A stretch of DNA of 64,000 nt from Clostridium sp. 12(A) (GTDB lineage Bacteria; Bacillota; Clostridia; Lachnospirales; Lachnospiraceae): NCBI GenBank assembly GCA_000526575.1, contig JAGI01000002.1, positions 124,001-188,000 of the forward strand. The letters run 5' to 3'. A model generated the notes under the pieces. The model searched no databases, had not been told where the DNA came from, and saw only the letters and a program-made list of their open reading frames with translations. This document shows positions 3 through 42,404 of the stretch, in pieces; within the stretch, counting starts at the first letter, position 1, and each line of letters begins with the position of its first letter. The position numbers and the translations under genes were made by a program.

Positions 3-662
3 AAGCCAGAGGAATGCTATATGCCAGAGCTTGCCGGAAGCATACTGCTTGATGGGAATGATAGGTATCCCTCAAATGGCTATGGAGTACTGCCAAATGG
101 CGTAGGCTTTGCAGCAATTAAGATTGTACAGGAGGGAATTACGGATGAGATGATAAGAAACTATCAGGAGAACTTTGCCAACGACGAAAACTGCAACCTG
201 TTTTACAAGACCTGGTACCCAGGAGCCCATCTCATTCACTTTGATGATGGTGCGGTGGAGGATTTTGGCTGGGGAATGATGCGGATGGAGATGAATTGGG
301 ATTGCTTTCGTTTTAAACATCTTGGAATTGAAGAAGCAGATATCCCTCAGCGTGATCCTGGCTGCATCTTTCTCATGGGACTTGGAGGAAAAGCAGAGGA
401 GATATATGACAGGGAAGGGAAAGAAAGAGTCATGTGTATGGTACAGCATACAAAAGAAACGGACATTGGTAGGGAATTAAGAGTTCTCTACTGGAATGGC
501 CTGACCTTTAGGGAAGATGGGACACTAAAAGTCTCTCCAGAGCCTGATCCTCATAAGACCATGAATGAAATGAAACTGATGATGATTCACTGCATGACAG
601 AATATTGCAATCAATTGAAGCTGATTAAGATGTTTTGGAATAAGGAGATAAAGGAAGGATGA
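3..662 (+). CDS. DAPG/phloretin hydrolase-like protein (PhlG family), 5' end outside window
   Basis: The frame is open from base 3 with no stop, so the gene begins upstream of the window; the first internal Met is at 21. The visible 219 codons resemble the DAPG hydrolase (PhlG) family, which includes the gut enzyme phloretin hydrolase. These are zinc enzymes that hydrolyse a carbon-carbon bond between an acyl group and a phloroglucinol ring. Seen directly: a W-Y-P-G-A-H segment (H70 counted from Met21) and a C-terminal H-x3-E pair (H190, E194), which fit the family metal ligands. It is followed after 4 bases by an MFS transporter frame, so the two probably form an operon. The substrate is inferred only; the nearby C-glycoside genes make a flavonoid aglycone such as a dihydrochalcone plausible. 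Confidence 0.6.
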   Translation, partial: KPEECYMPELAGSILLDGNDRYPSNGYGVLPNGVGFAAIKIVQEGITDEMIRNYQENFANDENCNLFYKTWYPGAHLIHFDDGAVEDFGWGMMRMEMNWDCFRFKHLGIEEADIPQRDPGCIFLMGLGGKAEEIYDREGKERVMCMVQHTKETDIGRELRVLYWNGLTFREDGTLKVSPEPDPHKTMNEMKLMMIHCMTEYCNQLKLIKMFWNKEIKEG

Positions 663-666: not shown

Positions 667-1810
667 TTGTTAGAGAGAACAAAGAAAAATAATATCATAC
701 TGTCTATTATTGGAATATCCTTCGTGCAGGGATTACAATTTAGCATATCACCGGTTTTTAGGCCAGATACAGCTCCATTATCCGGAAGTAAATGTAAGCC
801 TTATCCAGATGTTAATTACAGCGCCAACCCTGTTATCCATGGTCATGTCAGTTGCGGTTGGCACTCTGGTTGTAAGGATCAGTAAAAAAAAGCTGCTTTT
901 AATCGGCTGTTTCATTACAGGAATTGTTCCCTTTGTATGGGATAGTTTTATGCTTTTGTTTTTATCCAGAACGATATATGGAATCGGACTTGGGATGGCG
1001 ACTACACTGAATGCGGCTGTTGTTGCAGAGTTTTTTGAAGGGAAAGAGCGTGTTTCTGTTATGGGGATTCAGGCAGCCAGTGTGGGAGCCGGAATGGTAG
1101 TTATTACGGTTTGCAGCGGGTTGCTTGGGACTATAGGATTCCAATATGCTTATGTAATTCACATCATTGGTTTTATTGCAATGGTTTTAATCGCAGTGTG
1201 CCTTCCTGATACAGGTATTAAAAAGACGGATAGACCTGAGCCTGTTAAGCTTAACAAAAGGGTTGCTTCCATGGCAGTGGTTGGTTTTATGGAATTTCTG
1301 TTTCTGATTACATTCTCCACAAATTTATCCATGCACCTTAGTGGGAGTCTGGCTGGAAGCTCTTCGGTATCAGGTAATTTAACTGGCGTGTTTTCCGGTG
1401 CCCAGATTCTCATCGGACTAATTCTTGGCCTTTTAACGAATAAGTACACCATACCAACGGCTATGTTCAGTTTCAGCATTGGAGCGGTATTTCTCATTCT
1501 TTTCCCCTCCCAGGCGGCTCTTTTGATGATTGGAGCCATGTTCTGCGGTTTTTCCCAGGGGCTCTTTGTACCGACGGCTTTGGTTATAATTTCAAATGCA
1601 GTCAGACCAACGGCCGTAGCCATGGCGACTGCTTGCTTTAACGTTGCAGTCTACCTTGGACAGCTGCTGTCCCCAGCTATTTTAAATACGGTTTCAACAT
1701 TTATCTTTGGGGAAGTAACGACTTCCAATGTGTATATAATATCCTCCATAGGAATGGGGATTACAGCGTTTATTACAGTAATTATGATATCAAAGGAAGG
1801 AAAAGCTTAA
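667..1810 (+). pseudogene. MFS transporter interrupted by a +1 frameshift in a T5 run
   Basis: Two overlapping frames make up one major facilitator protein. The first begins at TTG 667, after the AAGGAAGG site at 652-659, and encodes the start of the first membrane helix (SFVQGLQFSISPV). The rest of the protein, including G-Q-I-Q-L and about eleven further hydrophobic helices, lies in the next frame to 1810. Dropping one T from the run at 755-759 joins them as P-V-L-G-Q, the expected helix-1/loop sequence. It is therefore either a recently broken gene or an assembly/sequencing error in a homopolymer. A product starting downstream would lack the first helix. It was probably the transporter partner of the upstream PhlG-like hydrolase. 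Confidence 0.7.
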
Positions 1811-1870: not shown

Positions 1871-4249
1871 CTAAACCTGCCTTATGATGTCCCATACACA
1901 TACATTGTGTGCAAGAATTGATGATTCCACCTCCAGGCAATCGTCTGCATGTAAGTAAATGTTCCTCTCTTCTGGAATACAGGCTTTTAAAAGATAATTC
2001 AACTGGGAGGCTGAGGGCAGTTTAATATCCATTAAATATTCTGTTTCACTTATGTTGCTTCTGACAAAACCTCCGATCCAGATATCCAGAATACTTCCAT
2101 GGGAGCGGTCTAATAGAAATCGGGATATCCGGTATTTGCCTGGGGTGATACCGTGTAAAAGAAAACGGAAGCTAACCCCAGGAACCTCTTCAAACAGCTT
2201 GTAAACATTGGAAAATGAGGAGTATTTCCCGTTTTCATAGAGACAGGAAGACCTGGGATGAGCATAATGAAAGCACATGATCTGATAGTGGTCAGGCCCC
2301 TTTCTGGTAATGCAAAAATTCTCCCCACGCTTAATAATCTCAATGCCCAGCCGCCCCAGCATTTGAAAGGCATAGAAGGCTGGCATGGCGATGTTATCCT
2401 TGTTAATGAGCCCGGAGCCCCAAAAGTAAAATGCTTTTTGTTTCATGGGACTTGATTGTGTGGTGGTATCACTAAACAGCCAATAGCCCATGAGATCACT
2501 TATGGAATTTAAATCCAGACATGTCTTACATATATAGGCCGACTGATAACAGGAATACTGTATGGGCAGCTCGGACAATGATATAGAATTCCATTCTGTG
2601 ATGTAAAACGGAGTGTGTACGTCATATTTGGAGATTATCTTTCTGATTTTCTGTGCCAGGTTAAGAGGAAGATTCTCATCCATACTAACAATTGCCTTGG
2701 AAGACTGCGGCTTTCTCATCAGGGAAAGATGAGCGGAGATAAAGGAGGGCTTCCCATCCCCTTTGTACAGACACCTTAAAATTTCCTCTAAATCTTTTAA
2801 ATCTTCTCTGGAATCAAAGCCAGGCCCGCCAAGGGAGACACCAGGAAGATATGAATGGATCATATCCTGAATCAGTCTGAAATCAGAGGCGTATTGCTGC
2901 GGCGTTTCCCTTGGTGATTTCCATAATTCGAATATCCATTGTGAAGTCCATTCTTTTGGGTAGCTTTGAGAGCAGAAGACTAAAAAAGCCTTTATTAGTT
3001 CAAAGAAACGGTTGTTTTTTAAAGAAACCAGAGAATCCTGTAAGGACCCGCCGGGTTCATAAAATGTATGGCTTAACCGGGTCAGATCGATGAATGGAAT
3101 CAGGTCGTGATCCAGCATAAAATGCATGATATCATCCAGATCAAGAAAATAGTAATTATAATCAGGCAATACCCTGGGGATAAAAGAGGAGCTAAGGATT
3201 CCCTGAATGCGAAGGTATTGAAAACCAAGAGATTTTCTCGACTCCAGAAGAAGTCTACTGTAATTTTCTGAAAGCAGGTTCTTTGCTGAGCTTACATTGA
3301 GTAACGTGGAGAAGTTATTTCTTAAGCCTTCCGTTTCATGGATATTCACATCAATCTGACTGCTATAAAGACAGCTGTTTTCAGAAACCAAGACCGAGTT
3401 GCTATACTCATCCAGCTGCTTGTATTCCTCTGCGAGCATATGGACGTGTTTGCTTTTCCGGAAGCTGCTGGGAGTCATCTTGTAGCTGGCCCGGAATGCT
3501 TTGCTAAACGCGGTCACATCGGAAAAACCATTACGGATAGCGATTTCTGTAATAGGGTCATCGGTATAGGAAACATCCCGGTAAGCATGGAACAGCCGTT
3601 TTTCCAGAAGATAGGTTTTAAAATTCTGATGTAAATACTTGTGAAAGAATTTAGACAAGTACTGAGGCGTTAAATAAAGGGCTTCTGAGAGTGATGTAAG
3701 GGTTATTGGCTCGTTATAATGGTGATCAATATAATCAATGATTTTATTGATGCGGGCCCCATGCTTTTCCGGAATTTTTTCATATAGTACAGGCTTGAAA
3801 TAATTGTCTTTTTTTAAGTGATCCATAAGCTGAAACATAAGACTTAAGATGTTTAAGTGATTCTCGGATGGTCCTTCCAGATACCTTGTTCCAATGTTTA
3901 TTAAGGCTTCTTTCAGCGCTGTATAGTTATTGCCTGGTTCCAGCACAGAGTCGCAAATCAGGGTTCCGTAGTTTCCAAGGCACTGTTCCACAAAATACGG
4001 GTGAATTCCCAGGTGGAAGATATTGCAGCTTTCCCCTGGAATCAGCGTGGCCCTCTTCATGGGACTTACAAGGCAGATATCACTGATAAAATACTGGGCC
4101 TCCTGCTCCGACAGGCCAATGGTCAGCTTTCCGGATACCACATAAATGAAGTCATAGGACTCATGCTGAAAGGTAAGCGGTTCCCGTATTTCCATGCTGT
4201 GAAAAAATATAATAGGAAGATTAGAAGGGAGATTTTGATACCAATTCAT
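1871..4249 (-). CDS. AraC-family regulator fused to a GH39-like domain (first copy)
   Basis: 792 residues. Residues 1-150 form a cupin-like sensor and 165-265 a complete AraC double helix-turn-helix (Y-L-S-K-F-F-H-K then G-F-S-D-V-T-A-F-S-K-A-F). Residues 310-760 resemble glycoside hydrolase family 39 (xylosidase type). Active GH39 enzymes have an F-E-x-W-N-E-P segment carrying the acid/base Glu; here it reads FELWKSP (440-446), so that Glu is lost, while the T-E-W strand (551-553) remains. It is probably a sugar-sensing regulator, not an enzyme. The start at 4249 has AAGGAGG eight bases upstream. It overlaps the end of the paralogous gene by 29 bases, so both are translated from one minus-strand message. 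The likely targets are the divergent transporter/C-glycoside genes at 6919. Confidence 0.85.
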   Translation of the reverse strand: MNWYQNLPSNLPIIFFHSMEIREPLTFQHESYDFIYVVSGKLTIGLSEQEAQYFISDICLVSPMKRATLIPGESCNIFHLGIHPYFVEQCLGNYGTLICDSVLEPGNNYTALKEALINIGTRYLEGPSENHLNILSLMFQLMDHLKKDNYFKPVLYEKIPEKHGARINKIIDYIDHHYNEPITLTSLSEALYLTPQYLSKFFHKYLHQNFKTYLLEKRLFHAYRDVSYTDDPITEIAIRNGFSDVTAFSKAFRASYKMTPSSFRKSKHVHMLAEEYKQLDEYSNSVLVSENSCLYSSQIDVNIHETEGLRNNFSTLLNVSSAKNLLSENYSRLLLESRKSLGFQYLRIQGILSSSFIPRVLPDYNYYFLDLDDIMHFMLDHDLIPFIDLTRLSHTFYEPGGSLQDSLVSLKNNRFFELIKAFLVFCSQSYPKEWTSQWIFELWKSPRETPQQYASDFRLIQDMIHSYLPGVSLGGPGFDSREDLKDLEEILRCLYKGDGKPSFISAHLSLMRKPQSSKAIVSMDENLPLNLAQKIRKIISKYDVHTPFYITEWNSISLSELPIQYSCYQSAYICKTCLDLNSISDLMGYWLFSDTTTQSSPMKQKAFYFWGSGLINKDNIAMPAFYAFQMLGRLGIEIIKRGENFCITRKGPDHYQIMCFHYAHPRSSCLYENGKYSSFSNVYKLFEEVPGVSFRFLLHGITPGKYRISRFLLDRSHGSILDIWIGGFVRSNISETEYLMDIKLPSASQLNYLLKACIPEERNIYLHADDCLEVESSILAHNVCVWDIIRQV

Positions 4250-6665: not shown

Positions 6666-6837
6666 AACTCCTCCCATAGATTACATTTTTTTCATTATAT
6701 CACAGATATTAACTAATTGTGATGTTCTTTAATCTTAAAAAATAATTAAATGGCTTATGAAAAATAAATGGTTAAAAAAGCACGGAAAAGAAGAGAAAAA
6801 AGCGGAATAGAGAAACGTTAGGAATAGCCTCCTTTGC

Positions 6838-6918: not shown

Positions 6919-8286
6919 ATGGGGACTAAAAGCAGTAAGATAGGACCGATGGAGTACGCTACCTATGGCATGGGGAATTTTGCCTCCCAACTTTCCTGGA
7001 CCATGGTAACGACTTACCTGGCAGTATTTTACACAGATGTTTTTGGATTAACCGCTGGTTCGGTAGCGGTACTTTTTCTGATAGCAAAAGTATGGAGCGG
7101 AATAAGTGATCCCTTAATGGGTGCATTGATGGAGCGTACCCATACCAGATTCGGACGGTTCCGTCCTTATATCGTCATCGGCGCCCCTCTGCTTGTCTTG
7201 TTTACCGTATTGACCTTTACGGTACCGGGATTTGGAGGGAAAGGAAAGCTTATTTATGCTTATATTACATACATCGGTCTTGGCATGTCTTATACCATTG
7301 CCAATGTACCATATCTGGCATTGCCAGCGGTTATGACGACAGACAGCAAGAAGATCAACCGCTTAAATACCGCTCAGATGATGGGGATGGTATTCGGGAT
7401 GATTTTGTTAAATCTCGTAACCCTGCCGTTAGTAAATCTCTTTGGCGGTGGTGATATGGGAGCTGGGTATCAGAGAACAGCCAGTGTATTTGCATTAATC
7501 GCTCTTCCCATCTTCTGGATGTGCGCGTGGAAATGCAAGGAAACGGTACAAGTACATAAAGAAGATCAGGTTTCCTTAAAAGAATCAGCAAAGCTGATTG
7601 TAAAGAACAAAAACTTAATTCTGATTGTGATCTATACCATTTTGAATATGGCGGGTATGCTTGGCCGAATCGGAGTGGCGGTTTATTTCTATTTATACGT
7701 GGTAAGAAATTATACGTTTATCACCATTTTTATGATGATGCAGATGCTGGTAGGGGCACTCATTATGCCATTTTCTCCTAAAGTCATGGAACGCTTCGGG
7801 AAAAAGAAGACCATTTATTTCTCTGGTCTCGTCCAGGCACTGGGTCTTATTATGATGGTATTTGGTCCTTATATGAACATTCCCTATCTGTTCTTATGCC
7901 ACATTGTATATGGTCTTGGTTATATTGCCGGTCCTTGCGGATCGTGTATGATCGTTGATGCAGTAGACGATGCAGATTTGAAAACAGGAGTCCGAACCGA
8001 TGGTACTGCATTTTCTTTAAATGGATTAGGCGGCTTGATCGGTACCGCCCTTGGAGGTGCTCTTGGAATTGCAATTATTGGCTGGTTTGGTTATGTAGCT
8101 GGTGAAGAAATTACAGATCAGGTGAAAACAGGTATTATCATTGCCACCAATGTTATGCCTGCAATTATCTATGTGCTCTCCCTGATTCCCATTGCCTGTT
8201 ACAGCTTAAAAGAGAGCGATATGACTGAAATCAGGGAAAAGCTTCGCATTAGAAATGAACAAAGAGATTTAGAACGATTGAAATAG
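6919..8286 (+). CDS. GPH-family glycoside/sugar:cation symporter
   Basis: 455 residues with about 12 hydrophobic segments. It belongs to the glycoside-pentoside-hexuronide:cation symporter branch of the major facilitator superfamily (MelB/XylP/UidP type), seen in the D-P-L-M-G-A-L-M-E-R-T-x-T-R-F-G-R-F-R-P loop near residue 75 and the A-D-L-K-T-G-V-R-T-D-G segment in the second half. It should import a glycoside with Na+ or H+. The start at 6919 is chosen because AAAAGGAG at 6904-6911 sits seven bases upstream; a Met 10 codons earlier lacks such a site. It is the first gene of the operon encoding the C-glycoside deglycosidase proteins and so is their likely uptake system. Confidence 0.88.
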   Translation: MGTKSSKIGPMEYATYGMGNFASQLSWTMVTTYLAVFYTDVFGLTAGSVAVLFLIAKVWSGISDPLMGALMERTHTRFGRFRPYIVIGAPLLVLFTVLTFTVPGFGGKGKLIYAYITYIGLGMSYTIANVPYLALPAVMTTDSKKINRLNTAQMMGMVFGMILLNLVTLPLVNLFGGGDMGAGYQRTASVFALIALPIFWMCAWKCKETVQVHKEDQVSLKESAKLIVKNKNLILIVIYTILNMAGMLGRIGVAVYFYLYVVRNYTFITIFMMMQMLVGALIMPFSPKVMERFGKKKTIYFSGLVQALGLIMMVFGPYMNIPYLFLCHIVYGLGYIAGPCGSCMIVDAVDDADLKTGVRTDGTAFSLNGLGGLIGTALGGALGIAIIGWFGYVAGEEITDQVKTGIIIATNVMPAIIYVLSLIPIACYSLKESDMTEIREKLRIRNEQRDLERLK

Positions 8287-8303
8287 GAAAGGAAGAAACA
8301 AAT

Positions 8304-9407
8304 ATGAAGAAATTAAGAATTGGTATTGTTGGCTGCGGTGGAATTGCAAATCAGAAGCATATGCCTTCTTTAAAAGCAAATGGAGAGATAAACGAGATCG
8401 TTGCATTCTGTGATATCGTGGAAGAGAGGGCTGTGAAAGCAGCCAGAGAATACGGCACTCCTGATGCAAAGGTGTACACCAACTATATGGACCTGGTAAA
8501 TTCCCCCGATGTGGATGTGGTTCATGTCTGTACACCTAATGTGGCTCACTGTCCCATAACCGTTGCTGCTTTTTCGGCGGGAAAGCATGTTATGTGCGAA
8601 AAACCAATGGCACACACTACAGAGGATGCAGAAAAAATGCTGGAGGCCTGGAAAAAGTCAGGAAAAAAATTCACCATCGGTTATCAGAATCGTCTGCGGG
8701 ACGATACCCAGACCTTACATGGTTCTTGTGCAGCCAATGAGCTGGGAGAAATCTATTTTGCAAAAGCCCATGCCTTAAGAAGAAGAGCTGTACCAACCTG
8801 GGGAGTATTCCCGGATAAATCACTCCAGGGCGGGGGTCCCCTGATTGATATTGGAACCCATGCACTGGATATTACCCTTTGGATGATGGATAACTATGAG
8901 CCGTTATCGGTTTCCGGCCAGGTATATTATAAGCTGGGACGCCAGGCTGATGGACCGGATGGCAATGTGTTTGGGCCATGGGACCCGGAAACGTTTGAGG
9001 TGGAGGATTCCGCGTTTGGACTCGTAAAGATGAAAAATGGAGCTACCATCTATCTGGAAGCATCCTGGGCACTGAATGTCTTAAAATCCATGGAGGCATC
9101 CACCACCCTTTGCGGAACAAAAGGGGGCGCAGAGATTCATCACGGCGGAAGCTATCCAAAGGATGAGCTGATCTATAATACCGTAGAACACAACACGCTC
9201 ATGGAGAAGACCATTTCTCCTGCCGGAGTGGTGGATTTCTTTGAGGGAGGTGCTTCAGCAGAAGGCGTCAGGGAGCAGAAGCAGTGGCTGACTGCAATCT
9301 TAGAGGATAAGGATCCTCTTGTAAAACCAGAGCAGGCGTTTGTAGTAACGCAGATTTTAGAGGGTATCTATCAGTCTGCCGAAACCGGGAAGGAAGTTTT
9401 TTTCTAA
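8304..9407 (+). CDS. Gfo/Idh/MocA oxidoreductase, candidate glycoside 3-oxidase of C-glycoside cleavage
   Basis: 367 residues. An N-terminal Rossmann fold (G-C-G-G-I-A, residues 9-14) binds NAD(P), followed by the family C-E-K-P segment (near 93) and the catalytic-domain G-G-G-P-L-I-D-I-G-T-H-A-L-D segment (about 175-190). Family members oxidise or reduce sugar hydroxyls. The next two genes encode DUF6379 and TIM-barrel proteins. In known gut puerarin degraders an oxidoreductase of this family first makes the 3''-oxo-C-glycoside that the two-subunit lyase then splits. The same role is proposed here from gene order. It lies 17 bases after the symporter, with GGAAAGGAAG upstream of its ATG. Confidence 0.85.
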   Translation: MKKLRIGIVGCGGIANQKHMPSLKANGEINEIVAFCDIVEERAVKAAREYGTPDAKVYTNYMDLVNSPDVDVVHVCTPNVAHCPITVAAFSAGKHVMCEKPMAHTTEDAEKMLEAWKKSGKKFTIGYQNRLRDDTQTLHGSCAANELGEIYFAKAHALRRRAVPTWGVFPDKSLQGGGPLIDIGTHALDITLWMMDNYEPLSVSGQVYYKLGRQADGPDGNVFGPWDPETFEVEDSAFGLVKMKNGATIYLEASWALNVLKSMEASTTLCGTKGGAEIHHGGSYPKDELIYNTVEHNTLMEKTISPAGVVDFFEGGASAEGVREQKQWLTAILEDKDPLVKPEQAFVVTQILEGIYQSAETGKEVFF

Positions 9408-9436
9408 ACTAAAATAGTGAAAGGAGCCTGATCATT

Positions 9437-9823
9437 ATGTTTCCAAAACAGATGTTCCATCCTCTTGGTTTTAAGAACATTGAGGAAGACGGCAGGATTA
9501 CAGGGTTCTGCTTTGAAATGAAGATTCAGTATTACCGGGGAATTACCCTTTCCATTTTACGAAATATAGAGGTCCTTGTTGATGGCACAGAGTATCCCAG
9601 AGAATCCATACGGTTTACCGTGAATGGAGAGACCTTTACCCTGGATGAGATGAGAACTGTCATAAGCAACCGCTGGCTGTTTGGCCAGTATGGAACGGTC
9701 ACAGTCCTGACAGAGGGGGGGCTTACCCCTGGCAGCCATCATATAACATGTACCCAGACAATCGCACCTTCCTACATGCCCCATATTCTGGTTCATGCAG
9801 GAGAGTATGATTTTGATCTTTGA
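9437..9823 (+). CDS. C-glycoside deglycosidase beta-subunit-like protein (DUF6379)
   Basis: 128 residues, no signal peptide. It resembles the DUF6379 family, now described as the small beta subunit of C-glycoside deglycosidases. Features include a conserved start (M-F-P-x-Q-M-F-H-P-L-G-F), an internal R-N-I-E-V-L-V-D-G-x-x-Y-P strand pair and a D-E-M-R-T segment. In the known complexes it pairs with a metal-dependent TIM-barrel alpha subunit and cleaves the C-C bond of a 3-oxo-C-glycoside to release the aglycone. It sits between its expected partners: the oxidoreductase is 29 bases upstream and the alpha subunit 17 bases downstream. The family call is from memory of the sequence pattern and context. 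Confidence 0.78.
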   Translation: MFPKQMFHPLGFKNIEEDGRITGFCFEMKIQYYRGITLSILRNIEVLVDGTEYPRESIRFTVNGETFTLDEMRTVISNRWLFGQYGTVTVLTEGGLTPGSHHITCTQTIAPSYMPHILVHAGEYDFDL

Positions 9824-9840
9824 AAATGGGAGGAAATGTG

Positions 9841-10893
9841 ATGGATAACAAGATAAAAAGAAGTGTATCCCTGTATAGCTACCAGCAGGAATATTACGAA
9901 GGAAAGCTTAATCTGGAGGGCTGTATCCGTGAAACAGCCAAAACAGGAGCCACAGGCATTGAGCTGCTGGCAGAACAAATGGTAGATGATTTTCCGATAA
10001 TCACCCCGGAGTTTAAAGAAACGTGGTTTGGCTGGATGAAAAAGTATGGAACAGAACCAACCTGTTACGATGCGTTTCTGGAAAACCGAATCTATGATAA
10101 CCGCGTTTGTACTTTACGGGAGCAGATTCAGATGATGAAGCGGGATATAGATAATGCCAGCCAGCTTGGTTTTCAAACCTTAAGAACCCTGGTTTCCACT
10201 CCCATGGATGTGATTGAAGGGAGTATCCCATTTGCAGAAGAAAAGAATATTAAAATCTGCATTGAGGTCCATTCTCCTTTCTCCCTTAATTCTGGCTGGG
10301 CTGACGGCTATATGGAAATGATACATAAGACCGGGACCAAGCATTTTGGTTTTATGCCTGATTTTGGAATATTCTGCCGCCAGATTCCAGATATACTGAC
10401 GGCTCAGGCTGTTCGGAATGGCTGTAGAGAAGAAGTGATAAAAATCGTGGAGGATGCCTTCCAGGAGCGTGTAAGCAAAGGTTTTATGAAGATTAAATAT
10501 GATTTAAATCTGGGAAGAGCCCACGGAGAGTATATGAAGGCCAATGGATATCCTAAATTGATGGAGGCACTGGAGAAGATCCATGCCACACCAGCGGAAC
10601 TGGCCTATGCAGGTTCCACCTTTGATTATACCTGGTGCGACCCGAAAGACATTATTGATAATATCCAGTATACCTACCATACCCATGCTAAGTTCTATCA
10701 CATGAATGAAGCTTATGAAGAGACCTCTATTCCCATAAAGGAAGTGGTCGAGGCTTATAAAAAAGCTGGATATAACGGTTATCTTTCCTCTGAATACGAA
10801 GGAAACCGGATGTTAAATGATGTCCTGGAGGTTGACAGCATAGAACAGGTAAGGCGTCAGCAGGAGGCACTGAGAAGAGCCATAGAGGAATAG
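9841..10893 (+). CDS. C-glycoside deglycosidase alpha-subunit-like TIM-barrel protein
   Basis: 350 residues of the xylose-isomerase-like TIM-barrel (sugar phosphate isomerase/epimerase) superfamily. The four expected metal ligands are visible as E142 (C-I-E-V-H), D174 (M-P-D-F-G), H287 (F-Y-H-M-N) and E318 (S-S-E-Y-E). In the C-glycoside deglycosidases this subunit holds the metal and, with the DUF6379 subunit, performs the beta-elimination. ATG 9841 is chosen because GGGAGG (9828-9833) is correctly spaced; a TTG at 9820 would overlap the previous stop. It ends the first operon and is followed by a terminator. A plain sugar isomerase/epimerase is the alternative, but the adjacent DUF6379 gene argues for the deglycosidase role. 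Confidence 0.8.
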   Translation: MDNKIKRSVSLYSYQQEYYEGKLNLEGCIRETAKTGATGIELLAEQMVDDFPIITPEFKETWFGWMKKYGTEPTCYDAFLENRIYDNRVCTLREQIQMMKRDIDNASQLGFQTLRTLVSTPMDVIEGSIPFAEEKNIKICIEVHSPFSLNSGWADGYMEMIHKTGTKHFGFMPDFGIFCRQIPDILTAQAVRNGCREEVIKIVEDAFQERVSKGFMKIKYDLNLGRAHGEYMKANGYPKLMEALEKIHATPAELAYAGSTFDYTWCDPKDIIDNIQYTYHTHAKFYHMNEAYEETSIPIKEVVEAYKKAGYNGYLSSEYEGNRMLNDVLEVDSIEQVRRQQEALRRAIEE

Positions 10894-10901: not shown

Positions 10902-10954
10902 AGTACCGGAGGAATCAAAGTGTATCAGTACTTTGGTTCTCCGGTATTTTTATC
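10902..10954 (+). terminator. Intrinsic terminator of the C-glycoside operon
   Basis: Arms 10902-10920 and 10931-10948 pair (about 17 bp, with G-T pairs) around a 10-base loop, followed by a T run. It separates the deglycosidase operon from the redox operon. The AT-rich 10955-11155 stretch must hold the next promoter, but no convincing -35/-10 pair was found. Confidence 0.8.
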
Positions 10955-11155: not shown

Positions 11156-12631
11156 ATGAAAGAATATGAAGCACAGGTTGGAGTCATTGCGGCAGGTCCT
11201 TCCGGACTGGCGGCTGCTGTTCAGGCGGCCCAGCTGGGGGCAAGTGTGGTGGTGCTTGAAAAGTCAGCCGCAGTCGGCGGCGCTGCCAATATGGGAATGG
11301 GTCCTTTGGGAATCGGGACCTCATATCAGAAAAGACAGATGATTGATATCAGTGTAGAAAAAGCGTTTAACATGTTTATGGATTACACCCATTACAACGT
11401 GGATGCCAGGCTGGTAAAGCGGTATTTTGCCCAGTCCGGAGAGACCATACAGTGGCTTGAGGATATGGGCGTTGAGTTTGAGGGCGCATTCCGCTACTTT
11501 CCCCAGTCAGAAGCAACCTGGCACGTTGTGAAAACAGATACGGGTATCGGGCCGAGGGCAGCTTCCTTTATGAATCGCGCCATGTATGAGAAGGCGCTGG
11601 AGCTTGGGGTAACAATACTGCTGGAGCACTCTGCCAAGAAAATTATAAAGGAACATGGTAAAGTGACGGGGATCATAGGAACGGCTCCTGACGGGCAGGA
11701 AGTTAGAGTCAGCTGCCATGCAGCAATTATCTGTACCGGAGGAGCCGGGGCCAATAAGGATATGATTAAGGAACTGACTGGTCTGGAGCATGGAAAGGAT
11801 GTCTTTCATTTTGCCATACCCGGATTAATGGGGGATGGACTTAGAATGGCCTGGGAAGCAGGGGCAGATCAGACCCAGATGAGAATAGAGATGGCCAGTG
11901 ATTTGGGTGGGGGAGAGCCCACGACCGGAGGGGTCACCAATATTATGAAGCAGCCCAATCTGCTGGTGAATGCCTTTGGTAAAAGGGTCATGAATGAGGA
12001 TTATATGCAGAACACCACATACCTGTCCAATGTAGCAAATCATCAAAAGAATAAGGTCTGCTTTTCCATTGTGGACAGCTCCATCGTGAATTACTACGTC
12101 AGCCATGGCGTGGATGTGACAAGTCTGGTTACTCCAAATTCTGATGTATCTGATTTTTATGAAGGCATAGAAATGCTTAAGAAAAATGGAAGCAGGCATT
12201 ATTTTGTAGCGGATACCATAGAGGAGCTGGCACAAAAAGCAGGAATTGATGAAGCTAATTTAAAGGAGACCATTGATAATTATAACTACTTCTGTGACAG
12301 CAGAGATCTTGAATTTTATAAGGATCCAAAATATCTAAGGCCTCTGTTTAAAGCTCCTTATTATGCGGCAGCTATACATCCTGGCGGCTATGGAACCGTA
12401 GGAGGCATTCGGATCAACGAAAACTGTGAAGCCTGCGATAAGGAGTATCAGCCAGTGCCTGGACTTTACTGTGCCGGTGCAGATTCCTGTAACATTTACG
12501 ATGACAGCTATATGTTTCTGCTGCCTGGAAATTCCATGGGCTATGCGGTAAATACAGGACGCATTGCAGCCCTCAGTGCGGTAGAATACATAAGAAAAGA
12601 AGGTAAGAATGGGAGGGTATTATGCCAGTAA
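11156..12631 (+). CDS. FAD-dependent reductase, fumarate-reductase/urocanate-reductase type
   Basis: 491 residues from ATG 11156, with GGAAAGGAAG upstream. The N-terminal dinucleotide fold reads A-A-G-P-S-G-L-A-A-A followed by V-V-L-E-K. The C-terminus has the family close P-V-P-G-L-Y-C-A-G-A-D plus L-P-G-N-S-M-G-Y-A-V-N-T-G-R. This is the FAD_binding_2 family (fumarate, urocanate, hydroxycinnamate and 3-ketosteroid reductases/dehydrogenases). No heme or FMN domain and no signal peptide are present, so it is cytoplasmic and needs an electron donor, plausibly the Fe-S proteins of the next genes. It overlaps the next gene by 10 bases, indicating translational coupling. The substrate is unknown; reduction of an activated C=C bond of an aglycone or enone sugar would fit. 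Confidence 0.8.
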   Translation: MKEYEAQVGVIAAGPSGLAAAVQAAQLGASVVVLEKSAAVGGAANMGMGPLGIGTSYQKRQMIDISVEKAFNMFMDYTHYNVDARLVKRYFAQSGETIQWLEDMGVEFEGAFRYFPQSEATWHVVKTDTGIGPRAASFMNRAMYEKALELGVTILLEHSAKKIIKEHGKVTGIIGTAPDGQEVRVSCHAAIICTGGAGANKDMIKELTGLEHGKDVFHFAIPGLMGDGLRMAWEAGADQTQMRIEMASDLGGGEPTTGGVTNIMKQPNLLVNAFGKRVMNEDYMQNTTYLSNVANHQKNKVCFSIVDSSIVNYYVSHGVDVTSLVTPNSDVSDFYEGIEMLKKNGSRHYFVADTIEELAQKAGIDEANLKETIDNYNYFCDSRDLEFYKDPKYLRPLFKAPYYAAAIHPGGYGTVGGIRINENCEACDKEYQPVPGLYCAGADSCNIYDDSYMFLLPGNSMGYAVNTGRIAALSAVEYIRKEGKNGRVLCQ

Positions 12632-14739
12632 TAACAATCGATGGTATAAAAATTCAGGTACCGGAAGATTCCTGTGTGCTGGAAGGGGCGTTAAAGGCAG
12701 GAGTTTACATTCCTCATCTGTGCCACCATCCCGATCTTTTGGAACACAACTCCTGCCGGCTGTGCATTGTAGAGGTAGAAGGAGAGGACCAGGTGGTGAC
12801 CTCCTGTACCTTAAAGCCAAGGGACGGTATGGTAATTCAAACGAAAAGTGAAAGGATTAACAGGCTTCGGTCCCTGGCACTAGATCTTCTTTTAGCGGGT
12901 CACCCGGAAGACTGTTCCACCTGTCCAAAGTATGGGAACTGCGAGCTTCAGACACTGATTCAGTATTTAGGCGGAGCCAGTTCACGGATGAAGCACCGGG
13001 TAAAAGGCTTCCGTTCCATAGAAGAGAATCCCCTTCTGGCTCACGATATGAACCGGTGTGTCTTATGCGGCCGCTGTGTCAGGGCCTGCAAGGATTTACG
13101 AGGGGTGGGAATTTTAAAATATTCCACAGAAAACATGGAAACCTACATAGGTACGCTTCATGATAAGCTTCTAAAGGAGGAAGACTGCCGCTTTTGTCAG
13201 GCCTGTGCCGAGGTTTGTCCAACCGGAACCATTCGTGACAAGCGTTCTCCTATGGAAGCGGATAAAACAAGGGAAGAGATGATTGTACCCTGCCGGGCCG
13301 CTTGTCCAGCCCATACGGACGTTCCCCGCTATATCTATCTGGTAAAGGAGGGGAGATATGGGGAAGCCGCCGCTGTGATTCGGGAAAAGGTACCATTTCC
13401 AAAGGTTCTTGGCTACATCTGCAATCATGTATGCGAAATGCAGTGCAAGCGAAGTGAGGTCAATGAGGCCATGTCCATTCGGGAAATCAAGCGGTTTGCA
13501 GCAGAAGCAGATACCGGTACCTTTTGGAGAGGAAAAGGAAAACAGCTTCCCCTTACAGGAAAGAAGGTCTGTATTGCAGGGGCGGGACCGGCTGGTATGA
13601 CGGCTGCCTATTACTTAAGAAAGCAGGGGCATGAGGTGACAGTACTGGAAGCGAACGAAAAGGCAGGAGGAATGCTTCGCTATGGAATTCCTGAGTATCG
13701 TCTTCCGGGAAATATTATTGAGGAAGAATTACAGGTAATGATGGACGCCGGTGTAAAAGTGGAATGCAATAAAAGGGTGGAAGATCCCATTGCCCTGAAA
13801 GAGGAATACGATGCGGTGCTTTTAGCGATGGGAACTCATAAAGGCGTGCGGCTTCCCATAGAAGGCTCTGAGCTTAGAGGGGTGTTTGTAAATACTGAGT
13901 TTCTCAAAGCTGTCTCAGAAAAAAGGGAGAGTGGAATGGGAGAACGGGTGGTTGTTCTTGGGGGAGGCAATGTAGCCTTCGATTGTGCAAGAACAGCAAA
14001 GCGCCTTGGTGCCATAGAGGTTCATCTGGCCTGTTTGGAACGCAGAGAAAACATGCCTGCGGATGAAGAGGAAATTACACAGGCAACGGAAGAAGGAATC
14101 CTGATACATCCTGGACGGACCTTTGAACGCATTACGGGAGAGACCCAGGCAAATGGAGTTGAGTTTATGGAGGTCCTGACCTTTGCATTTGATAAGAATG
14201 GCCGTCCGGTGGTTACAAAAAAGGAAAACTCGAAATCCTCTATACAGGCTGATACCGTAATTTTTGCAGTTGGACAGCGTCCGGAGCTAAGGAAAGAAAA
14301 CGGTCTGCCCCTCACTCCGGGTGGTTACATAGCAGTGGATGAAAATACACTGAGAACCGGAATTGATGGAATCTTTGCAGCAGGAGATGTGATCTATGGA
14401 ACCAGGTCTGTCATAGAAGCTATTGCCTCCGGACGAAAAGCCGCTGCCTCCATCGACCGGTATCTGGGTGGTGATGGTGATATAAGTGAGATACTCGCCC
14501 CTGTTACAGAGAGAGAGGACTTCATCGGGAAAATAGAGGGCTTTGGGGATAAAACGAGGGCAAAAGAACAAATCGTCTCTGCAGATGAGCGGGTAAGCAG
14601 CTTTCAGCCATATCATGGAGGTATCTGCGGTGAGGATATCTGCAAAGAAGCAAACAGGTGCCTGCAGTGCGATCTAAGGCTTAAGATCACGCCTCCAAGA
14701 CTTTGGGGCAGCTTTGACCGGGAGGAGGAAGTTCAATGA
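12622..14739 (+). CDS. NuoG-N/ferredoxin-GltD fusion: Fe-S flavoprotein NAD(P)H oxidoreductase
   Basis: 705 residues in three parts. Residues 1-120 look like the NuoG/HydA N-terminus: a [2Fe-2S] site (C34, C45, C48, C62) and a His-Cys3 cluster (H94, C98, C101, C107). Residues 140-200 carry two [4Fe-4S] motifs (C146/149/152/156 and C189/192/195/199). From 220 the protein is like the glutamate synthase small subunit: N-terminal cysteines 224, 228, 267, 271, 275, a FAD site G-A-G-P-A-G at 320, a second dinucleotide site G-G-G-N-V-A-F-D, and a closing C-L-Q-C. It should move electrons from NAD(P)H through flavin and Fe-S centres to the flavoprotein encoded just upstream. The overlap of 10 bases upstream and 4 bases downstream supports one complex. 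Confidence 0.82.
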   Translation: MPVITIDGIKIQVPEDSCVLEGALKAGVYIPHLCHHPDLLEHNSCRLCIVEVEGEDQVVTSCTLKPRDGMVIQTKSERINRLRSLALDLLLAGHPEDCSTCPKYGNCELQTLIQYLGGASSRMKHRVKGFRSIEENPLLAHDMNRCVLCGRCVRACKDLRGVGILKYSTENMETYIGTLHDKLLKEEDCRFCQACAEVCPTGTIRDKRSPMEADKTREEMIVPCRAACPAHTDVPRYIYLVKEGRYGEAAAVIREKVPFPKVLGYICNHVCEMQCKRSEVNEAMSIREIKRFAAEADTGTFWRGKGKQLPLTGKKVCIAGAGPAGMTAAYYLRKQGHEVTVLEANEKAGGMLRYGIPEYRLPGNIIEEELQVMMDAGVKVECNKRVEDPIALKEEYDAVLLAMGTHKGVRLPIEGSELRGVFVNTEFLKAVSEKRESGMGERVVVLGGGNVAFDCARTAKRLGAIEVHLACLERRENMPADEEEITQATEEGILIHPGRTFERITGETQANGVEFMEVLTFAFDKNGRPVVTKKENSKSSIQADTVIFAVGQRPELRKENGLPLTPGGYIAVDENTLRTGIDGIFAAGDVIYGTRSVIEAIASGRKAAASIDRYLGGDGDISEILAPVTEREDFIGKIEGFGDKTRAKEQIVSADERVSSFQPYHGGICGEDICKEANRCLQCDLRLKITPPRLWGSFDREEEVQ

Positions 14740-15929
14740 ATACGTTTCAAAAAGCGAAGGAAGCAGGGCGGGAAGCCTTGATAGAACGGGTAAAAATGAA
14801 TGAAATTCCTTTTGGCTTGACGACTGGGAAGAACACCGTTACCATTGTGACCGGCCTTAAAAATCACGACAGAGAGCATGTGCTTCTTCGTATCCTGGAA
14901 CAAGACCCGGAGGTGGTTTTGCAGGGACTTGCAATAGCCGGTTTTATTATGAAGGCTACAGAACTTCTATGTTATGTTCCAGAAGAGAAAGCGGAGCTTA
15001 AGGAGCTTTTAGAGGAAAAGGCCGCTGAGCTTGAGATTGAAGTGAGGGTGGAGACGGGTAAGATTCCGGCAGATATTCTTTATTCAGGTCTTTATTGCAG
15101 TTTTATTATGCTGAAAGGGTTATACGAAACGGTAGAAGAAACATATGAACCGGAATATTATCTGTGTACAAAATACAAAAGAGGAAAAGAGGAATGGTAC
15201 GGAACCCCACAATGGGTGAAGTCAGGTACGCCATTCAACGAAATGATTGAGATGGACCCAAAGAGAATCAAGGCAATTCAGCTTGGAACTCATCTGTATT
15301 TACCAGACATACTGGAGGAATCGGTTGCTGAATCAGAGGTATGGAACCTGGATACGGGCGTAATCACCGTATTCGATGAGAGCTGCTGTATGATTCATGA
15401 AGCAGAAGAAAACCTGTATGGAGGGCGCAGGGAATGCTGTGGCAAATGTACCTTCTGTCGGGAGGGCTTATTGCAGCTCCATACCAGGGTTCATGACATT
15501 ACCTCGAAAAACGGGGAATGGATCAGTATGGAAATCATGAAAGAACTGGCGGAGGCCATGTCTTACAGCTCTCAGTGCTCTGTTGGCAATACCGGAGCGG
15601 ATTTTTTACTGGACACATTCCGGCTTTTTGAACAGGAATATGTGGAGCATATAAAAAAGCACACATGTGCAGAAGGTATCTGCTCTGCCTTCACCAATAT
15701 CTATATTGCACCCGATGGATGTGTTGGATGTGGAAGCTGTATCAAAGAATGCCCGGAGGATTGCATCGAGGGGCTGCCAGGGTACATTCATATGATCGAA
15801 GGATTAAAATGTACCAAATGCTTAAGGTGTGCAAAAGCCTGTCCCCAGCAAGTGATTTTTTCCACGACTGGCAAAATTCCTTCCATACCGGACCGCCTGA
15901 CACGGGTAGGACGATTTAAACGATATTAA
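14736..15929 (+). CDS. Degenerate NuoF-like Fe-S protein with C-terminal 2[4Fe-4S] ferredoxin
   Basis: 397 residues. Residues 40-75 match the D-P-E-V-V-L-x-G-L-A-I-A-G part of NuoF/HoxF. Residues 235-281 match its C-terminal cluster domain (C235, C238, C241, C281), and 329-369 form an eight-cysteine ferredoxin. The glycine-rich NADH/FMN segments of NuoF (G-R-G-G-A-G-F and G-E-E-T-A-L) are absent and the region before the cluster is shortened. It probably cannot bind NADH/FMN normally and may be a wire between the GltD-type fusion upstream and the flavoproteins. Its start overlaps the previous stop by 4 bases. Confidence 0.7.
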   Translation: MNTFQKAKEAGREALIERVKMNEIPFGLTTGKNTVTIVTGLKNHDREHVLLRILEQDPEVVLQGLAIAGFIMKATELLCYVPEEKAELKELLEEKAAELEIEVRVETGKIPADILYSGLYCSFIMLKGLYETVEETYEPEYYLCTKYKRGKEEWYGTPQWVKSGTPFNEMIEMDPKRIKAIQLGTHLYLPDILEESVAESEVWNLDTGVITVFDESCCMIHEAEENLYGGRRECCGKCTFCREGLLQLHTRVHDITSKNGEWISMEIMKELAEAMSYSSQCSVGNTGADFLLDTFRLFEQEYVEHIKKHTCAEGICSAFTNIYIAPDGCVGCGSCIKECPEDCIEGLPGYIHMIEGLKCTKCLRCAKACPQQVIFSTTGKIPSIPDRLTRVGRFKRY

Positions 15930-15953
15930 TTGATGATAAAGGAGAATAAGAGA

Positions 15954-16919
15954 ATGAAAGTATTAGGAATTAATTTTGGCGGGCGTGCCATGAAATGCGG
16001 AGAAATTATGGTGAAGGAAGCGTTATTTGCAGCAAAAGAAGCGGGTGCAGAGGTGGAATTTGTTCGTACCATCGGGATTCGGATTGACCCATGTCTTGGT
16101 TGCGGTGTTTGCAGCCAGAAGCGGGATCAGGGAGACAATGTACATTGCATTATTAAGGATGATTACGATAAGCTGGTGGAAAAGGTTCTGGATGCAGATG
16201 GAATTATTGTTGCAGCACCTGTATTTTCTGTAGGTCCAACCGGTCAGATCAAAAATTTCATAGACCGCTTTGGCGCTTCCCATGACCGGGCCGCCCTTGA
16301 TGAGATCCAGAAAAAGAGAATCGAAGAGGGAAAAAGCGGCGAGGAGCTGTTAGATCCCCGTTATTTTAAGAAACGGTATGTTGCATATATGTCCATAGGC
16401 GGTGCAGATACTCCTCACTGGGTAGCCTTAGGCTTGCCTACCATGGCTGAGTTCGGCACTTCCATCCATATGAAGGTAGTTGGTCAGCTGGATGCGTATG
16501 GACAGGGTCAGAGAGCCAATCCGTTGTTTGATGATAAGCTTATGAGCCAGTGCCGGGAGCTTGGAAAGAGAGTGGCTGAGGCTTATGGAAAAGAGTACGA
16601 TGAAATTGAATGGTATGGAGAAGAAGGGGTTTGTCCCGTTTGTCATGGAAAATCCTTTATGCTGGATCAGGCGCCTGACATTTACTGTGTGACCTGCGGG
16701 GTGAAAGGAACCATGGACTTTAAGGATGGCTCCATGAAGATTCATTTTGCTCCCGAGGATAAAAAGATATCAAGGACCTCCATGGAAGGCCTCTATGATC
16801 ATTACTGGGAAATTGAAAATATGAAAAAGGTCTGCATTCCGAAAATCATGGAAAATAAGGAATGGCTGGAAGAGCATTTACAAAAATATAAGGACTTTGA
16901 CAAGGTTATTGCAGAGTAA
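15954..16919 (+). CDS. Iron-sulfur flavoprotein-like NAD(P)H/FMN reductase
   Basis: 321 residues; AAAGGAG (15938-15944) fixes ATG 15954 rather than the TTG at 15930. The N-terminal flavodoxin-like fold of the NADPH-dependent FMN reductase family is followed by a compact cysteine motif (C47, C50, C53, C65), as in iron-sulfur flavoproteins (Isf). The FMN loop A-A-P-V-F-S-V-G-P-T-G-Q-I-K-N-F-I-D-R follows. The C-terminal third has two C-x2-C pairs (C-P-V-C and C-V-T-C) resembling a small zinc ribbon, which is unusual in this family. It is probably an electron carrier or the terminal reductase of the operon. The partner and substrate are unknown. Confidence 0.7.
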   Translation: MKVLGINFGGRAMKCGEIMVKEALFAAKEAGAEVEFVRTIGIRIDPCLGCGVCSQKRDQGDNVHCIIKDDYDKLVEKVLDADGIIVAAPVFSVGPTGQIKNFIDRFGASHDRAALDEIQKKRIEEGKSGEELLDPRYFKKRYVAYMSIGGADTPHWVALGLPTMAEFGTSIHMKVVGQLDAYGQGQRANPLFDDKLMSQCRELGKRVAEAYGKEYDEIEWYGEEGVCPVCHGKSFMLDQAPDIYCVTCGVKGTMDFKDGSMKIHFAPEDKKISRTSMEGLYDHYWEIENMKKVCIPKIMENKEWLEEHLQKYKDFDKVIAE

Positions 16920-16932
16920 AAGGAGGGGCATA

Positions 16933-17853
16933 ATGAAACTTGGATTTGTCAGCGCAATACTGGATGGCAGCAGCTTTGAGGAGATGATGGATCTTGCCTC
17001 CAGTCTTGGCTTTGAATGTGTGGAGGTAGCCTGCTGGCCGAAGGAAAAAGCCCAAAGACGGTACGCAGGAGTATCCCATATTGATGTGGACCGTGTCGTA
17101 AAGGAACCAGACTACGCCAGCTATATCAAAGCTTACGCAAAGAAAAAAGGAATTACCATCTCCTCACTGGCTTATTATCCTAATCCTCTCGATGGAGATA
17201 GAAAGAAAGGAGAGGCGGCTGTAGAACACTTAGAGACAATGATAAAGGCCAGCAGAATTCTCTCCGTGGGCATGGTGACCACATTCATTGGTAGAGATCA
17301 GAATAAGAGTATAGAGGAAAATCTGGAGCTGATAAAAGAAGTCTGGCCGCCGATTCTAACACTGGCAGAGGAAGAGAATATAAAGATTGCAATTGAAAAT
17401 TGTCCTATGCTGTTTGGAAGAGATCAATGGCCTGGAGGACAGAATTTAATGACAACGCCCTCCATCTGGAAAAAAGTGTTTGAACTGCTTCCAAGCGACC
17501 ATCTTGGCCTTAACTATGATCCTTCTCACTTCGTCTGGCTGATGATTGATTACATAAAGCCCATGTATGAATTTGCAGATAAAATCTTTCATGTACATTA
17601 TAAGGACATAAAAGTTTATAAAGATAAGCTTAATCAGGTTGGAATTATGGCGTACCCTCTGGACTTCATGTCACCGAAGCTTCCTGGCCTTGGTGATGTA
17701 AATTGGGGCAGATATGTGAGCGCTCTCTATGACATTGGTTTTGAAGGCTGTACTTGTATTGAAATTGAAGATAAGGCGTTTGAAGGAACAAAGGAAATGA
17801 TCCTAAAAAGCCTTGAGCTAAGCAAAAAATATATGGAACAATTTGTGATATAG
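16933..17853 (+). CDS. Sugar phosphate isomerase/epimerase-type TIM-barrel protein
   Basis: 306 residues; AGGAGGGG (16921-16928) supports ATG 16933. It is of the xylose-isomerase-like superfamily with metal-ligand candidates E155 (A-I-E-N), D196 (N-Y-D-P-S-H), H222 (H-V-H-Y-K-D) and E277 (C-I-E-I-E-D). Members isomerise, epimerise or eliminate on keto-sugars. It lies 13 bases after the flavoprotein gene and 10 bases before a Gfo/Idh/MocA oxidoreductase. This pair is typical of catabolism through 3-keto sugars, perhaps of the anhydro-enulose released by C-glycoside cleavage. It lacks a DUF6379 neighbour, so a deglycosidase role is less likely than for the gene at 9841. Confidence 0.78.
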   Translation: MKLGFVSAILDGSSFEEMMDLASSLGFECVEVACWPKEKAQRRYAGVSHIDVDRVVKEPDYASYIKAYAKKKGITISSLAYYPNPLDGDRKKGEAAVEHLETMIKASRILSVGMVTTFIGRDQNKSIEENLELIKEVWPPILTLAEEENIKIAIENCPMLFGRDQWPGGQNLMTTPSIWKKVFELLPSDHLGLNYDPSHFVWLMIDYIKPMYEFADKIFHVHYKDIKVYKDKLNQVGIMAYPLDFMSPKLPGLGDVNWGRYVSALYDIGFEGCTCIEIEDKAFEGTKEMILKSLELSKKYMEQFVI

Positions 17854-17863
17854 GAGGAAATGA

Positions 17864-20427: not shown

Positions 20428-20828
20428 TCGGCTTTTTTGTCTATAAAATTGATTTTTTTTAAAAACTCATTTTCCTGTTTTAAATATTTTACTTGATGTT
20501 CTAGATGTGCAATACGTTCCTGTTCAGATAATTGTTTAGTTGAAGGGCGTCCCGAATTATTTTTACGTGTGTCTTCAAACCCTTCTGCTCGAAGACTGAA
20601 TTTCTTTATGCGTCTTGTAATTGTATCGATTCTACGTTTACCAAGCAGTTGTGGGTCAATACCCATAGCACGTAAAATAGAAGAAGGCAATCTCCCGGTC
20701 TCATATTCTGTGGCAAATTTTCTTCTAAACTCAGTTGTATATGTAATTGCTTTCTCAGAAACGCGTTCAATATATGGATTATTACGAAGCTGTTCCTGTT
20801 GTTTCTGTGTAAAATAATTTTTCCCCAT
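20370..20828 (-). CDS. IS3-family transposase OrfA (helix-turn-helix, leucine zipper)
   Basis: 152 residues with AAGGAG upstream of the ATG. The N-terminal half is a helix-turn-helix (Y-T-T-E-F-R-R-K-F-A near 30; R-A-M-G-I-D-P-Q-L-L-G). It is followed by a coiled coil with heptad leucines (H-L-E-H-Q-V-K-Y-L-K-Q-E-N-E-F-L) used for oligomerisation. OrfA binds the terminal repeats. The A8 slippery run in the message (complement of 20453-20460) lies just after the coiled coil, the usual place for programmed -1 frameshifting into orfB. Confidence 0.9.
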   Translation of the reverse strand: MGKNYFTQKQQEQLRNNPYIERVSEKAITYTTEFRRKFATEYETGRLPSSILRAMGIDPQLLGKRRIDTITRRIKKFSLRAEGFEDTRKNNSGRPSTKQLSEQERIAHLEHQVKYLKQENEFLKKINFIDKKAEWTEKRKQHQKKNSDSFKK

Positions 20829-22100: not shown

Positions 22101-22140
22101 TAACAGGACAGGCCTGAAAAGGTCCGGATTTTGATAATAA

Positions 22141-22171: not shown

Positions 22172-22213
22172 TCATATAAAGGTAATCTAAAATTATTATG
22201 GTGGGAGGAAACT

Positions 22214-42364: not shown

Positions 42365-42404
42365 CTTTATAAATTTATTTTTGGGGTCTTTTTGTGCATA
42401 TCCG

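Follow-up and report, generated by a model that had tools for sequence, protein, structure and literature searches.

We analysed a 64,000-nt stretch of the Clostridium sp. 12(A) genome (contig JAGI01000002.1, positions 124,001 to 188,000; hereafter the window), in which ten plus-strand genes appear to encode a pathway for C-glycosyl polyphenols: uptake, oxidation of the sugar at C3, cleavage by β-elimination, salvage of the sugar, and NAD(P)H-driven reduction of the aglycone. We place the probability of this reading at roughly 0.7. The gene families, active-site residues, gene order and conservation on which it is based come from sequence or predicted fold, and every activity, metal, substrate class and electron path is inferred from relatives. 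The C-glycosides belong to the most stable glycosides that plants make. The enzymes at the start of the region form a C-glycoside deglycosidase (CGD) core of a known kind; the reductase module linked to it is the new part.

A predicted C-glycoside deglycosidase core

A sequence-only reading of the window had proposed a tightly ordered symporter, Gfo/Idh/MocA oxidoreductase (GfoA), CGD beta subunit and CGD alpha subunit, forming with two divergent regulators a complete uptake-and-cleavage unit at 6919-10893. The order is indeed tight, with gaps of 17 bp, 29 bp and 17 bp, and the CGD interpretation is supported: besides both CGD subunits, the region holds a DgpA-like oxidoreductase and a transporter, from which the regulators diverge (Table 1). 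The unit does not end there; related genes, comprising sugar-salvage candidates and the reductase module, run on to 18913. The symporter starts at ATG 6919, preceded by AGGAG, and the likely start of alpha, from which its residues are numbered here, is ATG 9841, preceded by GGGAGG. The match of GfoA to DgpA (PDB 7xr9) spans residues 1-362. As the sequence-only reading required, the 128-aa protein encoded between GfoA and alpha belongs to the CGD beta family, its PF19906 score standing far above the cut-off of 27.6. It is the sole CGDB match in the 4.6-Mb genome, and CGDB matches were absent from 14 control genomes.

A single-chain model of alpha was built from an alignment of 54 sequences (the window protein and 53 of 78 full-length named sequences). 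Its fold matches in the PDB are C-deglycosidases at all of ranks 1-16 (E 9.1e-35 to 1.4e-22), and the next protein follows at 1.4e-11. AgCGD2 binds its metal through E147, D179, H269, K271 and E305 and uses the catalytic pair H149/E307, while in PuCGD water takes the lysine's place at the metal (PMC8563793). Mapped through the DgpC alignment, the AgCGD2 ligands correspond to E142, D174, H282, K284 and E318 of the window alpha, and the catalytic pair to H144/E320. These seven residues are invariant in 11 of 11 rows of one alignment and in 54 of 54 of the larger one. Of four metal ligands named at the outset, E142, D174 and E318 stand. H287 was rejected, as this position is not conserved (N in 7, H in 2, D in 1 and E in 1 of 11 rows) and the histidine that fits AgCGD2 is H282, together with K284. 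Judged by the beta match, the fold, and the metal and catalytic residues, the predicted alpha-beta pair is a CGD.

In the tree of the 54 sequences, the window alpha falls inside a 28-row clade (support 100/100) that includes none of the PDB rows (7bvr, 7bvs, 8qrz, 8qvc). It does not group with DgpC, DfgA, or the Deinococcus or Microbacterium enzymes; therefore, its substrate cannot be deduced from theirs. Because the PDB rows are partial and sit on long branches, the deep branching order is uncertain. A substrate range of its own, as the sequence-only reading suggested, is thus indicated indirectly for the pair by its separate clade. Other clade members come from Catenibacillus scindens DSM 106146 (72% identity), Anaerobium acetethylicum, Clostridium puniceum, Lacrimispora defluvii, Faecalicatena, Agathobacter ruminis and metagenome-assembled genomes of several kinds; [Clostridium] aerotolerans DSM 5434 has an alpha 98% identical to the window's and the same genes. 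Some loci hold CGD alpha copies of different clades (L032/L097 of Anaerobium acetethylicum, L099, L113, L120 and L141), with three copies each in L097 and L141, which suggests several substrates per cluster.

A putative reductase and sugar-salvage block

The second block (11156-18913) begins at ATG 11156. It encodes an FAD reductase of the fumarate-reductase/vinyl-phenol-reductase superfamily (FADred), a NuoG-type domain fused to a GltD-type domain (NuoG/GltD), a NuoF-like protein, a homologue of the flavone reductase FLR, a second xylose-isomerase-type TIM barrel (TIM2) and a second Gfo/Idh/MocA enzyme (GfoB). Against the model of the vinyl phenol reductase VprA (NF053717), FADred scores 283.7 bits, below the curated cut-off of 600. 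We take H365, R402, H504 and R544 to be the fumarate-binding positions of Fcc3; in a pairwise alignment to 1d4d, inspected by eye, FADred lacks these histidines and arginines. A neutral substrate is likely because these residues are not kept. FADred might also carry out a C-ring cleavage of the Fcr type.

In fold, the NuoF-like protein still matches HydB and NuoF (query-length TM-scores of 0.56-0.77 among the 50 matches listed), and its cysteines are kept. Its first 200 residues are divergent, and this part is largely missing in a paralogue elsewhere in the genome (locus L083). A GRGG-x-GFPTG-type motif, presumably the FMN motif of NuoF, was not seen in these 200 residues, and by its sequence the protein seems to have lost the FMN site. 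Since this half is divergent and lacks the motif, NAD(P)H is likelier to enter at the GltD-type domain than at the NuoF-like site. Electron bifurcation was considered from the Stn, Hyd and Nfn relatives and not adopted, as none of the cluster's scanned proteins gave a NuoE-type match and the NuoF-like half looks degenerate.

The genomes with NuoG/GltD matches number 24 and hold 28 rows; comparison by hand places 25 of these rows next to a FADred-family gene, and those without such a neighbour are G050:C19, G210:C49 and G224:C46. In seven genomes (G291, G021, G159, G230, G103, G265 and G126), NuoG/GltD is 61-67% identical to the window's and the neighbouring FADred 45-49%, a pattern to be expected if a single donor module serves interchangeable terminal reductases. 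The Clostridium sp. 12(A) genome holds two paralogous sets, neither accompanied by a CGD in the sequence fetched around it: FLR-type, FADred, NuoG/GltD and NuoF-like genes at L084 (G000:C2, ~57.3-63.0 kb), and NuoG/GltD, NuoF-like and FADred genes at L083 (G000:C2, ~1557-1561 kb).

PDB entry 7d38 (record name 'Cd1'), which the flavodoxin-fold protein matches, is taken here to be FLR of Flavonifractor plautii because all 16 residues checked carry FLR's stated letter and number. These are 16 of the 19 residues named for FLR, the other three lying beyond the aligned stretch; mutation of G106, W149, H271 or I275 significantly reduced or abolished its activity (PMC7862272). The window protein keeps all four. 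In a 29-row alignment (the window protein, the L084 paralogue, and 27 of the 31 full-length homologues at named CGD loci), W149 and H271 are invariant and I275 is at least 90% conserved.

A precedent for the sugar branch is found in Bacillus smithii, which turns levoglucosan into glucose with LgdA (levoglucosan dehydrogenase), LgdB1 and LgdB2 (annotated as sugar phosphate isomerases) and LgdC (Gfo/Idh/MocA). Levoglucosan is oxidised, elimination then yields 1,5-anhydro-D-erythro-hex-1-en-3-ulose, and this enone is hydrated and reduced (PMC7676230). CGDs are proposed to yield the same enone (PMC8563793), and, according to a paper on mangiferin, hydration and reduction take the enone to glucose (PMC12101588). 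TIM2 and GfoB belong to the families expected for the hydration and reduction steps, and we propose them for these roles; sequence searches with the two proteins gave no closer assignment.

Conservation of the gene set

The contig scan for alpha relatives gave 112 loci, of which the best 80 were kept, 39 of them at least 19 kb long. All ten genes recur in the same order in L035 (genome G287; BLAST survey), more than chance would give, and also in the two closest relatives (L093 and L094). Counting matches of at least 60 bits in the 39 long loci, some of which are near-duplicates so that the counts are not independent, homologues of at least 50% identity were found for FADred in 20 loci, GfoA in 25, GfoB in 25, TIM2 in 15, NuoG/GltD in 12, the FLR-type gene in 7, the GPH symporter in 5, the NuoF-like gene in 2 and the PhlG-family gene of the left edge (Table 1) in 2. 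At any identity, the FLR-type gene is found in 21, NuoG/GltD in 15, the NuoF-like gene in 14 and the symporter in 10. FADred lies on the same strand as alpha in 30 of 31 loci, and the FLR-type gene in 33 of 33.

At the level of genomes, we compared nine other family genomes with alpha orthologues (60-74% identity) to 289 sampled genomes without. FADred orthologues (63-79%) occur in 8/9 of the former and 0/289 of the latter (Fisher p 6e-15, not corrected for relatedness). FADred is clustered with a window-clade alpha in five of these eight genomes (G287, G148, G036, G075 and G170, the alpha gene of G170 being divided between the ends of two contigs). The FADred of Catenibacillus scindens (G067) lies ~107 kb from alpha, beside an FLR-type gene. 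As a control, ten stretches were fetched around distant CGDs (L042-L051; L032, L033, L086, L089 and short distant-copy loci are not counted). FADred and NuoG/GltD are each found in 0/10 of these, the FLR-type gene in 5/10, GfoB in 5/10 (one at 35% identity), GfoA in 5/10 (one at 26%) and TIM2 in 3/10. L086 and L089, which were chosen for their FADred, do contain it. FADred therefore goes mainly, but not only, with the window's CGD clade. As all CGDs are expected to give the same sugar product, this bias suggests, weakly, that FADred acts on the aglycone.

Two Treponema-binned contigs (L104 and L110), found among the 80 loci, one of them represented in the alpha tree, hold GfoA, CGD beta, CGD alpha, FLR-type, GfoB and FADred genes. 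Either inter-phylum transfer or mis-binning would account for them.

The proposed pathway and its alternatives

We propose that the GPH symporter imports the C-glycoside and that GfoA oxidises its sugar at C3 using NAD+. The alpha-beta complex, with a divalent metal at E142/D174/H282/K284/E318 and H144 as a base assisted by E320, would then β-eliminate the C-C bond, giving the aglycone and 2-hydroxy-3-keto-glucal. TIM2 would hydrate this enone to 3-keto-glucose and GfoB would reduce 3-keto-glucose to glucose, so that the sugar branch would be redox-neutral. The aglycone would be reduced by the FLR-type ene-reductase and by FADred, whose electrons would come from NAD(P)H by way of the GltD-type flavin domain and the NuoG-/NuoF-like Fe-S chain.

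Several observations weigh against this pathway. The terminator-like hairpin between the blocks, for which 0/200 shuffles are as low in energy and which is alignable in the two closest relatives, means that the blocks may not be co-transcribed. FADred is absent within ~10 kb of alpha in 19/39 long loci; in G110 and G292 it adjoins a CGD pair of another clade (L086, L089), which weakens its clade specificity; the 20 kb around the C. scindens FADred contain no CGD; and in G144 a distant CGD has a FADred-family/NuoG pair ~13 kb away, a little beyond the counted stretch. The FLR homologue has R, C, G, S and V in place of the FMN contacts M10, S14, N15, E91 and K92 of FLR, and G106 falls outside the conserved columns of the 29-row alignment. 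The annotated relatives of TIM2 are weak. Finally, the PhlG-family gene lies near alpha in 2/80 loci, those of the two closest relatives, and in 0/9 genomes with alpha orthologues.

The hairpin, the 19 long loci with no FADred nearby and the FADred-NuoG pairs that occur with no CGD nearby (in this genome, L083 and L084) would all suit a plain DgpABC-type C-deglycosidase operon at 6919-10893, with the reductase block as a functionally unrelated neighbour. We consider this improbable given the identical ten-gene order in L035, where the alpha and FADred frames abut, the co-occurrence and strand bias of FADred reported above, and its position next to some CGD in 7/8 orthologue genomes. If the two blocks do act together, the FAD reductase module might instead reduce the sugar-derived 2-hydroxy-3-keto-glucal as an electron sink, leaving the aglycone alone. 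The elimination product is an enone, the FADred superfamily includes enone-active steroid enzymes, the presumed fumarate-binding residues are gone, and FADred orthologues also stand beside CGDs of other clades (L086, L089). This too is unlikely, though it merits attention: the same sugar product is expected of CGDs in general, yet FADred is found at 0/10 of L042-L051 versus 20/39 long loci; the cluster already encodes a candidate hydratase and reductase for the sugar; and the paralogous set L084 includes an FLR-type gene while showing no match to CGD, TIM2 or Gfo proteins.

The substrate might also differ in its linkage: the alpha-beta pair might cleave oxidised O-glycosides in place of C-glycosides, or act on both. 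D3dgpA oxidises glycosides of either type (PMC11239390), and an O-glycoside β-eliminase that is unrelated in sequence exists (PMC10628242). The CGDB subunit, the full CGD metal and catalytic set, and best fold matches that are all C-deglycosidases leave only a small chance for this alternative. We favour cleavage of a C-glycosyl polyphenol followed by reduction of its aglycone.

Features of the region

Table 1. Features of the left edge and the gene cluster, in window coordinates. Enzyme roles are predicted; pLDDT, predicted local distance difference test (mean).
Feature	Position	Strand	Evidence
PhlG (2,4-diacetylphloroglucinol (DAPG)/phloretin hydrolase) family gene, 3' part	21..662	+	PF18089 42 bits, whole protein; pathway membership unproven
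MFS transporter directly 3' of PhlG-family gene	710..1810	+	PF07690 118.8 bits; pathway membership unproven
AraC-type regulator with GH39-like domain	1871..4249	-	PF01229 90 bits, PF12833 68.5 bits
AraC-type regulator with GH39-like domain, weak helix-turn-helix	4221..6677	-	PF01229 113.6 bits; PF12833 21.4 bits, below cut-off 33.6
GPH-family sugar/glycoside:cation symporter, probable importer	6919..8286	+	TIGR00792 347.4 bits (cut-off 231.35); PF13347
GfoA, DgpA-like Gfo/Idh/MocA glycoside C3 dehydrogenase (predicted)	8304..9407	+	7xr9 DgpA 566.9 bits, E 1.8e-169
CGD beta subunit	9437..9823	+	PF19906 CGDB 136.8 bits; 7bvs_B DfgB E 2.6e-20
CGD alpha subunit, TIM barrel	9841..10893	+	8qvc_A E 5.9e-73; fold model pLDDT 92.2
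Terminator-like hairpin and T tail after first block	10904..10951	+	Pattern match; -30.2 kcal/mol, z -7.1
FADred, FAD reductase, fumarate-reductase/vinyl-phenol-reductase superfamily	11156..12631	+	PF00890 (FAD_binding_2) 163.3 bits
NuoG-type Fe-S domain fused to GltD-type NAD(P)H/FAD domain	12622..14739	+	Profile matches; 9bov_A, 9n5u_A, 8oh5_C
NuoF/HydB-like Fe-S protein, divergent N-terminal half, with 2[4Fe-4S] ferredoxin	14736..15929	+	HydB/NfnB/NuoF fold, pLDDT 87.2
FLR-type flavodoxin-fold (FMN_red) ene-reductase homologue	15954..16919	+	7d38_A E 5.1e-44
TIM2, second xylose-isomerase-type TIM barrel, proposed 2-hydroxy-3-keto-glucal hydratase	16933..17853	+	PF01261 (AP_endonuc_2) 121.1 bits
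GfoB, second Gfo/Idh/MocA enzyme, proposed 3-keto-glucose reductase	17864..18913	+	PF01408 82.1 bits

The PhlG-family gene is a 288-aa frame that starts 205 bases before the window (G000:C2:123796-124662), and its alignment to PF18089 (cut-off 22.7) is limited to profile positions 10-69 of 223. Phloretin hydrolase has been assigned to the DAPG hydrolase superfamily (PMC11868195). Ring cleavage by the strain is a possibility. A complete ring-cleavage pathway through it was not adopted, on the locus and genome counts given above.

Both regulators lie on the minus strand, divergent from the plus-strand symporter as first described. Their GH39-like domains are probably sensors and not enzymes, to judge from their sequences. 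WNEP is, we assume, the GH39 acid/base motif; the corresponding site reads WKSP in one regulator and is unrecognisable in the other, and an ITEW/ITEF motif is retained (1871-6677). Promoter-like sites in the region number 27, no excess over the shuffle mean of 25.3.

An IS3-family transposase gene lies directly 3' of the cluster at 19489-20828; its match covers 19489-20427, and a further frame, 20370-20828, overlaps this part. Further along the window, GH62-like and GH127-like arabinofuranosidase genes adjoin each other (21186-24856), and a glycine riboswitch aptamer (42273-42369) lies just 5' of a sodium:alanine symporter family gene. Selenocysteine machinery occupies 57184-63395, with an AIR-synthase-type protein (perhaps SelD), a class V aminotransferase, a TusA-like protein, tRNA-Sec at 61394 and SelB.

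Implications and comparison with known systems

How anaerobes use C-glycosides determines the polyphenol metabolites to which a host or a soil community is exposed. If our reading is true, a single cluster would cover the route from C-C cleavage through sugar salvage to aglycone reduction, and its genes could be tested in bacteria that grow in culture, such as [Clostridium] aerotolerans DSM 5434. More speculatively, and with doubts that outweigh our confidence, we suggest that this anaerobe CGD clade has a multi-subunit FAD reductase of its own, driven by NAD(P)H, in which an Fe-S chain made up of the NuoG/GltD and NuoF-like proteins feeds an exchangeable terminal reductase, the polyphenol serving as electron acceptor and the sugar as carbon source. 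The recurring NuoG/GltD, NuoF-like and FAD-reductase unit would then be an anaerobic reductase family with substrates perhaps predictable from its neighbours, and a donor module that recurs with other terminal reductases would amount to a general anaerobic ene-reductase platform.

CGDs paired with DgpA-type partners are already known; in Catenibacillus, several have been predicted (PMC11170127). Among the open-access papers listed by our literature searches, in part the top entries of longer lists, none has a title or abstract opening that ties a CGD to a NuoG/GltD, NuoF-like and FAD reductase unit, which is weak evidence of absence. The StnABC, NfnABC and HydABC bifurcating complexes share NuoG-, GltD- and NuoF/HydB-type modules with the window cluster, which differs from them in having no NuoE-type gene, a divergent NuoF-like half and an FAD reductase as neighbour. 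The LgdA/B1/B2/C pathway likewise runs through oxidation, elimination, hydration and reduction by isomerase-type and Gfo-type proteins. Unlike the window cluster, it acts on an O-linked anhydrosugar, and the passages describing it mention no CGDB subunit.

Among the CGDs, the Dorea PUE system of DgpA and DgpB-C (7xr9, 7bvr) likewise combines a DgpA-like dehydrogenase with an alpha-beta CGD having the same metal and catalytic residues. Its DgpC is ~30% identical to the window alpha and belongs to another clade, and the literature passages on dgp mention no reductase module like the window's. DfgA-B of Eubacterium cellulosolvens (7bvs) offers the best solved match for beta, with an alpha in another clade. 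Closest among solved alphas by both sequence and fold is the C-glucosyl deglycosidase of Deinococcus aerius (8qvc, 8umc), which likewise has a separate DUF6379 beta chain but is 35% identical and falls outside the window's alpha clade. Catenibacillus scindens, reported to C-deglycosylate polyphenols (PMC11170127), carries a CGD homologue (L101) with a 72% identical alpha of the same clade; its FADred orthologue lies on the same contig but apart from alpha, unlike the adjoining gene of the window. For aglycone reduction, the nearest known relative is FLR of Flavonifractor plautii, which is homologous to the window protein over residues 1-277 and identical to it at 95 of the 277 aligned positions.

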